Of a stretch of DNA of 64,000 nt, positions 38,183 to 39,909 are shown piece after piece. The stretch covers positions 241,001 through 305,000 of the forward strand of contig NZ_BLIV01000002.1 in the NCBI RefSeq assembly GCF_009811755.1, in the 5' to 3' direction. Below the pieces are notes generated by a model, which was not told the origin of the DNA, made no database searches, and saw only the letters and a list, made by a program, of their open reading frames with translations. Position numbers and translations under genes: made by a program. The stretch's first letter is position 1. Each line of letters opens with the position of its first letter. This DNA comes from Roseobacter cerasinus. GTDB taxonomy: Bacteria > Pseudomonadota > Alphaproteobacteria > Rhodobacterales > Rhodobacteraceae.

Positions 38183-38803
38183 ATGACCCGCGCTCACCTT
38201 CCCGGCATTCTTGCCATGGCCGCCATCGTTGTGGCCTCCAATATCCTTGTCCAGTTTCTCTTTGGTCAGTGGCTGACCTGGGGGGCGTTCACCTATCCGC
38301 TGGCCTTCCTTGTCACGGATGTGATGAACCGCGTCTACGGCGCAGGCCCGGCGCGCAAGGTTGTGTTTGTGGGCTTTTTGGTGGGCATCGGCTGCTCGCT
38401 GATCGGCACGCAAATCATGGGCGAGTTCGGCCCGCTGGTCACATTGCGCATTGCCATTGGCTCGGGTCTGGCCTTCCTGACAGCGCAACTGCTTGATGTC
38501 GCTGTCTTTTCGGCCCTGCGCGACGGGCGCTGGTGGCGCGCGCCCCTGGCCTCCACGCTCATCGGCAGCACGGTGGACACAGCGCTTTTCTTCACGATCG
38601 CCTTCTCCGCAAGCCTCACGTTCATCGAGCCTGCCAATGATGTCAGCTGGGCCGGTGATGTTCTGCCGATTCTTGGGCTTGGCCCCGCAGCCCCGCTCTG
38701 GGTCTCGCTTGCTGTGGCCGACTGGATGGTCAAGCTGTCGCTGGCACTCCTGGCGCTGGTTCCGTTCCGCATGATCACGACACGTCTGACAGCTGCGGCG
38801 TGA
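38183..38803 (+). CDS. yhhQ: queuosine precursor transporter
   Basis: 206 residues with about six membrane helices. TYPLAFLVTDVMNRVYG is the family signature of YhhQ, which imports 7-cyano- or 7-aminomethyl-7-deazaguanine for queuosine in tRNA. ATG 38183 is preferred to TTG 38162 because GGATAA sits 8 bases upstream. I looked in the 90-bp upstream region for a preQ1 riboswitch and saw none. Followed after three bases by copy 2 of the 24-nt repeat. Confidence 0.9.
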   Translation: MTRAHLPGILAMAAIVVASNILVQFLFGQWLTWGAFTYPLAFLVTDVMNRVYGAGPARKVVFVGFLVGIGCSLIGTQIMGEFGPLVTLRIAIGSGLAFLTAQLLDVAVFSALRDGRWWRAPLASTLIGSTVDTALFFTIAFSASLTFIEPANDVSWAGDVLPILGLGPAAPLWVSLAVADWMVKLSLALLALVPFRMITTRLTAAA

Positions 38804-38806
38804 GCG

Positions 38807-38830
38807 TTTGCATATTTTTGGAACAATGAA
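38807..38830 (+). repeat. 24-nt post-stop repeat, copy 2
   Basis: Identical to the copies at 34459 (minus) and 50899; starts three bases after the yhhQ stop codon, same orientation as yhhQ. Confidence 0.9.
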
Positions 38831-38941
38831 GGTCTGATGTAGCAAGCGGGTCGGCGCCGCGAACGAAAAAACGCTTGGTGATTTCCAAAACCTGTGCAAC
38901 GATTCTGACAACGTCAACAGATAGGTAAAGGAGGTGATCCA

Positions 38942-38998
38942 GTGTCAAGAAAGGTATTGGAGCGAGGTGTCGGAACAGCTTTGGAGGTCGCCTGCTGA
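38942..38998 (+). CDS. possible 18-codon ORF in the RNA
   Basis: GTG 38942 is seven bases after GGAGG of a near-perfect ribosome site and opens a frame encoding MSRKVLERGVGTALEVAC, then TGA. Spacing is ideal, but the peptide is not recognised and the same bases take part in the proposed RNA stems. It may be a leader peptide, or the site may pair for structure only. Confidence 0.35.
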   Translation: MSRKVLERGVGTALEVAC

Positions 38999-39070
38999 GG
39001 CAGCCCTTGACGGGCAGACCCCCTGAGTGGACATCGGTCTAACCGATCCCCCTCCTGAAACCATTCGATT

Positions 39071-39098
39071 GGGCCGCACCACACCGTGCGGCCCTTTT
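39071..39098 (+). terminator. intrinsic terminator of the candidate RNA
   Basis: GGGCCGCAC and GTGCGGCCC form a perfect 9-bp stem around a 6-nt loop, followed by TTTTCT. It lies 28 bp before the VOC gene, so the RNA upstream ends before that gene unless readthrough occurs. Confidence 0.9.
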
Positions 39099-39126
39099 CT
39101 GTCTCTACCAACGCCGGAGCATCACC

Positions 39127-39483
39127 ATGATCCCCACTTTGGGCAGTCTGATCCTCTACACGCACAAGACCGATGCGATGATCGCCTTTTACGAGGCGCA
39201 TTTCGGCTATCGCGCAGATCAAAGGCCCGGCGACCGGATCGTAGAACTGCGTCCGCCGGATGGGGGTCTGCCGCTGCTGTTGCACCCGGCCGCAAAGAGC
39301 ATGCGCGCGGGACAGGCGGCGGTGAAGATCGTCTTTGCCTGTGATGATGTCGAAACCTTCTGCACACGGGCTGCCGAGCGCGGTCTGACCTTCGGCAAGA
39401 TCCACAAGGCGGATGGATATGTCTTTGCCAATGCGAAAGACCCGTCCGGCAACTCGGTGAGCGTCTCGGGGCGTTTCAGCTGA
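39127..39483 (+). CDS. VOC family protein (glyoxalase/bleomycin resistance fold)
   Basis: 118 residues; LGSLILYTHKTDAMIAFYEA and the C-terminal NAKDPSGNSVSVSG give the usual two beta-alpha-beta-beta-beta modules. The classical metal residues are not all visible, so the activity cannot be named. Three bases before arfB, so the two form a unit transcribed after the terminator at 39098. Confidence 0.83.
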   Translation: MIPTLGSLILYTHKTDAMIAFYEAHFGYRADQRPGDRIVELRPPDGGLPLLLHPAAKSMRAGQAAVKIVFACDDVETFCTRAAERGLTFGKIHKADGYVFANAKDPSGNSVSVSGRFS

Positions 39484-39486
39484 GCC

Positions 39487-39909
39487 ATGCTGCAGATCAC
39501 CGATGATATCATCCTGCAGGACTGGGAACTGACCGAGAGTTTCATCCGCTCCTCCGGCCCCGGCGGGCAGAATGTGAACAAGGTGTCCACGGCAGTGGAG
39601 TTGCGATTTGAGGCTGCACGCTCACCCGCCCTGCCTGGTCCGGTCAAGACGCGGCTCAAACGGTTGGCCGGGCGGCGCTGGACCCTGGAGGGTGCGCTGA
39701 TCATTCAGTGTGACGAAACACGCAGTCAGGCACGCAACCGCGAGATCGCCCGTGACCGTCTGGTCGAGTTGATCCGGAAAGCACTTGTCCGCCCCAAGCG
39801 GCGCATTCCGACCAAACCGACGCTCGGGTCCAAAAAACGGCGGCTAAAGGCCAAGAAAGCGCGCGGCGAGGTCAAGGCGCTGCGCGGTGCCGTCAAAGAC
39901 AGCGACTAA
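39487..39909 (+). CDS. arfB: alternative ribosome-rescue factor ArfB (peptidyl-tRNA hydrolase)
   Basis: 140 residues. The GGQ loop is SGPGGQNVNKVST, followed by a basic, lysine/arginine-rich tail (RRIPTKPTLGSKKRRLKAKK) that enters the mRNA channel of stalled ribosomes in E. coli ArfB. It hydrolyses peptidyl-tRNA on non-stop complexes. Coupled to the VOC gene; the 99-bp palindromic element starts at the base after its stop codon. Confidence 0.94.
   Translation: MLQITDDIILQDWELTESFIRSSGPGGQNVNKVSTAVELRFEAARSPALPGPVKTRLKRLAGRRWTLEGALIIQCDETRSQARNREIARDRLVELIRKALVRPKRRIPTKPTLGSKKRRLKAKKARGEVKALRGAVKDSD

Follow-up and report, generated by a model that had tools for sequence, protein, structure and literature searches.

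A conserved small gene of Roseobacter cerasinus with a Shine-Dalgarno sequence complementary to the 16S rRNA tail over 16 bases, very probably rreR

What kind of genetic element combines a ribosome-binding site that matches the entire 3' tail of 16S rRNA with a reading frame of only 18 codons and a terminator of its own? The question is raised by a short locus within a 64,000-nucleotide stretch of Roseobacter cerasinus DNA (referred to below as the window). The initial annotation took the locus for an independent RNA, and left its nature between a 6S-like RNA, a ribosome-binding small RNA and a translational switch acting on the short frame. The present computational analysis compares the locus with its relatives, and on this comparison the feature is a conserved small gene of alphaproteobacteria with a predicted short mRNA. 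Its elements are collected in Table 1.

Table 1. Elements of the locus and its downstream neighbour, in window coordinates
Feature	Position	Strand	Details
Promoter-like region	38874-38903	+	-35-like CTTGGT 38874-38879; weak -10-like CAACGAT 38897-38903; positions by eye
Predicted transcript of about 190 nt, rreR-type small mRNA	38908-39098	+	Placed by conservation; 5' end probably at about 38908-38911
Extended Shine-Dalgarno sequence AAAGGAGGTGATCCAG	38927-38942	+	16 nt complementary to 16S rRNA 3' end
Start-codon hairpin (predicted)	38938-38961	+	38938-38942 pairs with 38957-38961 (TTGGA, codons 6-7)
18-codon ORF (VSRKVLERGVGTALEVAC)	38942-38998	+	GTG start 38942-38944, TGA stop 38996-38998
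ATCGGT/ACCGAT hairpin	39033-39038/39042-39047	+	Conserved CTAACCG in loop and 3' arm
Internal anti-Shine-Dalgarno CCCTCCT	39050-39056	+	39051-39056 pairs with 38929-38934 (predicted)
Intrinsic terminator	39071-39098	+	Perfect 9-bp arms 39071-39079/39086-39094, then TTTT
ArfB ribosome-rescue gene	39487-39909	+	NF006718, 186 bits

The 16S tail, ending in ...GGCTGGATCACCTCCTTTCT, is perfectly complementary to the extended Shine-Dalgarno (SD) sequence at each of its 16 bases, the last of which is also the first base of the GTG start codon. In the window's own assembly CTGGATCACCTCCTTT occurs as a single copy, which is the site under study, and the 16S end was therefore taken from the SSU genes (Rfam RF00177) of two same-genus genomes; the 16-base match claimed from the window's letters was confirmed on both. 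The 16-mer is present once in the 4.47 Mb genome, as is the 14-mer AAAGGAGGTGATCC, while base composition predicts 1.9e-5 copies of the 16-mer for the window and 0.0013 for the whole genome. The runners-up within the window match the tail at 13 of 16 positions. A 13-nt match to the tail on the minus strand (63545-63530) lies, by eye, within a coding frame and is probably due to chance. Predicted pairing of the SD with a free tail amounts to -25.7 kcal/mol over 14 bp, and to -28.4 kcal/mol over 16 bp when two bases of h45 are added, compared to a median of -6.7 and a best value of -16.1 for 87 mechanically defined ORFs of the window (at least 200 aa, starting at the first ATG or GTG), so that the site is indeed far stronger than normal, as had been suggested. 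A remnant of antisense 16S was considered as the source of the complementarity and ruled out, since the identity ends at 16 nt and the element has its own ORF, fold and terminator.

A DNA search matched all 18 other genomes of the genus, 7 of the 16 additional genera sampled from the family, and none of 24 genomes of other families. The covariance search that the initial annotation had proposed was carried out with a model built from an alignment of 44 loci, which omits near-identical rows and most of those from the genus, any locus in which the script located no terminator, and the loci L055 and L108. Applied to 149 genomes of the family, each from a different genus and the window's own among them, the model gives matches with E values up to 0.001 in 138, some of these best matches being weak or partial, and none in the other 11; the RNA is thus conserved in most genera of the family, and its helices covary. 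Seventy model-found loci (the 30 best matches and 40 picked by hand at 39-135 bits, with those below 39 bits excluded) were used for further comparison, at least two of them from species already represented in the model-building alignment. Because these loci were taken by the model, selection by SD or by ORF length was avoided. The exact 16-nt SD is retained in just 36 of the 70, which indicates that 16 bp are not strictly required; the remaining 34 deviate and keep AAAGGAGGTG with GTCCAG or CCA-ATG, and among the 12 loci that start with ATG several retain AAAGGAGGTG only.

In a sample of 385 genomes from the class, 20 contain the exact 18-mer AAAGGAGGTGATCCAGTG, again including the window's own, and a scan through named genomes gave at least 117 stretches; a reversed control pattern of the 18-mer gave no match in the listed genomes. 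Exact matches outside the Alphaproteobacteria (for example L057, L060, L066 and L099) have no peptide motif in common, as judged by eye, and about 7 matches by chance are expected by arithmetic. In two loci, L034 and L076, the same extended SD precedes an ORF of 57 codons whose start resembles a signal peptide.

The 18-codon ORF pointed out earlier is present, and both its length and its stop are kept across the relatives. It has exactly 18 codons in 64 of the 70 model-found loci (63 under a cruder choice of start, which begins one locus at TTG), the others having 20 (four loci), 24 (one) or 12 (one), and it also has 18 codons in each of the 62 loci that carry the R-type 3' motif, a selection blind to ORF length. 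The stop codons themselves are exchanged: codon 19 is TGA in 30, TAG in 25 and TAA in 9 of the 70 loci, a sense codon in six, and TGG in none, the avoidance of TGG being scored at 1.6e-6 for ORFs pre-chosen as 18 codons long and with relatedness ignored. Pairwise identity among the 64 peptides has a median of 0.44 and a minimum of 0.11. The conservation of ORF length and stop position in a drifting peptide, together with the persistence of the RNA pairing, suggests that the peptide sequence is probably secondary. When the loci with the exact SD are arranged by group, the named Rhodobacterales (Ruegeria and Roseobacter among them) have 18 codons, frames of 20-26 codons, often opening with VSHC, prevail among the other alphaproteobacteria, and the seven named Bradyrhizobium/Bradyrhizobiaceae loci among the matches listed all have 14 (VSxxKRCHLAGIAR).

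The predicted fold of the window sequence places the SD in a helix with the internal anti-SD, their pairing having a probability of 0.98-1.0 in the ensemble. It had been proposed that downstream CCTCCT and GATC both pair with the SD; the former pairing is borne out, and the latter is absent from the predicted fold, in which T38935 and A38937 stay largely single-stranded, G38936 shows a mixed state, and the bases from 38938 onwards belong to the start-codon hairpin. The ATCGGT/ACCGAT hairpin had been put forward as a competitor that releases the SD, yet it forms largely within the same minimum-energy fold as the lock, and since the two co-exist there, release by this hairpin is unsupported. The idea of a translational switch is therefore retained in part: locking of the SD by the internal anti-SD makes it plausible, whereas the suggested means of release finds no support in the predicted fold.

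Across the aligned loci, RNAalifold joins the SD to CACCTCC-like bases ahead of the terminator; it also predicts helices between TCCAG and TTGGA (codons 6-7) and between GTCGG and CCGAC. In the six-helix structure adopted for the analysis 91.0% of the cells are paired, compared to 86.3% in shuffled and at most 62.6% in slid versions. Double-sided changes occur in 17 of 36 pairs (7 in the terminator, 6 in helix P4, 2 in P5 and 2 in P3) and in no pair of the lock or the start-codon hairpin; the lock lacks them because the SD hardly varies, and with 4 of its 5 pairs invariant the start-codon hairpin gives covariation nothing to act on. Helix P4, formed by ORF codons 12-15 and the 3' region, is supported by duplex energies of -14.1 kcal/mol for cognate partners versus -10.5 kcal/mol for permuted ones (n=45), a value that 0 of 2000 permutations reached. 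The chosen register, however, leaves P4 with 68.9% of its cells paired, and the window sequence fits it poorly. The same test was not significant for P3 (915 of 2000). The permutation set had been reduced from 59 to 45 loci by dropping those without a script-found terminator, most same-genus rows, L055, and L043, a locus that lacks the anti-SD motif. An additional pairing, P0, between codons 2-6 and the linker before the terminator, seemed by eye to covary but was rejected: its permutation result (151 of 2000) was not significant, and it would cross the lock helix. Of 136 loci, 131 contain an anti-SD-like motif, compared to 36.6 in shuffles; the count is drawn from two overlapping sets and biased by the 70 model-found loci, since the covariance model itself contains the anti-SD element.

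The proposal of an independent transcription unit is supported, as a prediction, by the combination of a conserved promoter-like region and the locus's own terminator, which closes the unit with perfect arms as originally described, has double-sided changes in 7 of 8 aligned stem pairs, and was located by script in 61 of 66 Rhodobacterales-type loci. The promoter-like region of the window is conserved in the genus; in many other genera its place is taken by TTGACA-like boxes some 50 nt ahead of the SD, and 119 of the 127 distinct stretches compared have a loosely defined -35-like TTG at about this distance. Many Rhodobacterales-type promoters also contain a dyad, for example ACACAAAATCTGTGT, in the spacer that separates the -35 and -10 elements (the window equivalent being 38874-38903), and palindromes with 4-nt arms occur in 42 of the 127 stretches versus 13.7 in shuffles. 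The dyad may serve as an operator for some regulator.

Genes of this type are said to have been described by Hahn and colleagues in 2017, namely rreB with a 14-aa ORF in Bradyrhizobiaceae and rreR with an 18-aa ORF in the Rhodobacter/Roseobacter lineage. The reported traits of rreR comprise an SD with at least 16 nt of complementarity to the 16S end, a GTG start, a small transcript of its own, association with the 30S subunit and weak translation. The locus studied here shares 16 of 16 bases with the complement of two same-genus 16S ends and has a GTG-started 18-aa ORF within that same lineage, and the division of the loci into 18-codon and 14-codon forms agrees with rreR and rreB as reported, which supports the assignment. 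The feature is thus very probably rreR, a sister of Bradyrhizobium rreB and a separately transcribed small mRNA of Rhodobacteraceae. Its kind appears to have been described already in 2017, and the lock, the fixed ORF length and the link to Rfam may be additions of the present analysis. The accessible parts of PMC4117421, PMC10117765, PMC5082802, PMC7298713 and PMC13009471 do not describe rreR, and a limited library yielded no literature on CC2171 with Caulobacter or on rreR with Rhodobacter and Shine-Dalgarno. A 6S-like RNA, another identity suggested initially, was rejected: an Rfam scan of the window at gathering thresholds was empty, and for the region 38800-39130 a permissive scan with E values up to 10 has CC2171 at the top of its list and contains no 6S model.

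How might such an RNA work? The best explanation overall, which we consider reasonably probable, is that of an rreR whose locked super-SD is opened by the 30S subunit; that a free 30S would do so by way of stable and slow initiation is, as a mechanism, evenly balanced in our judgement. The internal copy of the 16S anti-SD and the start-codon hairpin would jointly lock the SD, and a 30S subunit with a free 3' tail could invade this lock because the tail offers 14-16 pairs versus 6; the predicted cost of opening the SD in the window is 8.4 kcal/mol, compared to the -25.7 kcal/mol gained from the 16S tail. The outcome would be an unusually stable initiation complex that clears slowly. Translation of the fixed-length frame would then melt the downstream helices, and would reset the RNA or probably lead to its turnover; with turnover coupled to translation, ribosome availability would set both the RNA level and 30S binding. 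Transcription in Roseobacter cerasinus, 30S capture, slow clearance and turnover are what we infer from the sequence.

Other readings of the same features must be weighed against this one. If the product were a functional 18-aa micropeptide and the strong SD merely drove its synthesis, the exact ORF length and the LE..VGT residues conserved in most loci would be explained, yet these constant residues sit on the pairing bases of RNA helices (TTGGA and GTCGG), codons 7 and 12 barely vary even synonymously, and peptides can be as little as 11% identical. A pN/pS of 0.80 over 56 ORFs gives no sign of strong selection on the peptide, rreB is reportedly weakly translated, and a micropeptide seems to us unlikely. 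A base-pairing small RNA acting in trans on mRNAs, for which the ORF would be incidental, would be in keeping with a discrete structured RNA that ends in a terminator and with the filing of the relative CC2171 as an sRNA by Rfam; it is distinctly unlikely in view of the ORF length and stop codons, which are kept as the peptide drifts, and of the SD and start codon, which form the most constrained segment. Rhodobacterales use ordinary SDs, and the 16S tail is thus not generally hidden, which counts against a sensor for 30S subunits altered so that the tail is exposed, such as those lacking bS21. This very unlikely reading is drawn by analogy from the extended SD of rpsU described for Flavobacteriales (PMC9976891).

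The gene downstream suggests yet another role, that of an arfB leader or attenuator in which translation of the 18 codons would decide terminator read-through into glyoxalase-arfB and so tie ribosome state to rescue. It was preferred at first, as ArfB follows in the window, and ArfB is encoded on the same strand no more than 1.2 kb downstream of the RNA in 57 of 61 Rhodobacterales-type loci with the exact SD and in 53 of 66 model-found loci, with arfB starting 15-52 nt beyond the terminator in 27 of 60 listed loci. The upstream gene VUT, however, is equally conserved (60 of 62 and 30 of 30), so that the link to ArfB reflects general synteny and the neighbourhood says little about function. Within 1.2 kb downstream, ArfB was found in 0 of 45, 0 of 9 and 0 of 22 loci of other groups, and neither ArfB nor VUT was found within that distance of the relatives there; in eight loci of other groups the RNA is followed on the same strand by a motif that we take to be DUF188 (YaiI-like). 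The terminator is kept in the great majority of the Rhodobacterales-type loci, as counted above, and arfB itself shows TA at -12/-11 (T 0.39, A 0.58) with a clear SD missing by eye, a pattern which suggests that many loci have a separate promoter giving leaderless arfB transcripts. Attenuation of arfB was dropped as the main reading after the VUT control and the leaderless-promoter pattern, and we now consider it most improbable.

The feature may also be compared with systems beyond Bradyrhizobium. In Flavobacteriales, the extended SD of rpsU is reported to be tied to ribosome state (PMC9976891); that SD heads a ribosomal protein gene, whereas the present feature is a stand-alone 18-codon RNA. 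The feature also appears to be a remote relative of the Caulobacter sRNA CC2171 (Rfam RF01867), which it matches over 38918-39095 with 32.7 bits and an E value of 1.2e-5, below the gathering cut-off of 75. The alignment covers the full length of the family (1-159) including AAAGGAGGUGAUCCAGUGUC, and the two are similar in size and in their terminator-like end hairpin, yet the CAUUGUC/GACAAUG helix of CC2171 (seen by eye in the consensus) is unmatched here. Eight of 18 related loci chosen for scanning pass RF01867, none of them of the Rhodobacterales type, and these eight have ORFs of 21-25 codons of the VSHC type. A class sample gave matches at E values up to 0.001 in 49 of 240 genomes (the window's own included), 7 of them above the cut-off, while among 14 control genomes only Caulobacter vibrioides was matched. 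rreR, rreB and CC2171 would thus form one class-wide group. It is a tentative and somewhat doubtful proposal that these stand-alone RNAs gauge free 30S subunits or soak them up like a sponge; in the form of the Rhodobacteraceae, an anti-SD mimic would lock a super-SD that a free 16S tail can open, and the length of the ORF, rather than its peptide, would time ribosome clearance and RNA decay. If so, alphaproteobacteria would possess a dedicated RNA that reads ribosome availability by letting its internal anti-SD compete directly with that of the ribosome, and the Rfam "sRNA" family CC2171 would consist of tiny mRNAs.
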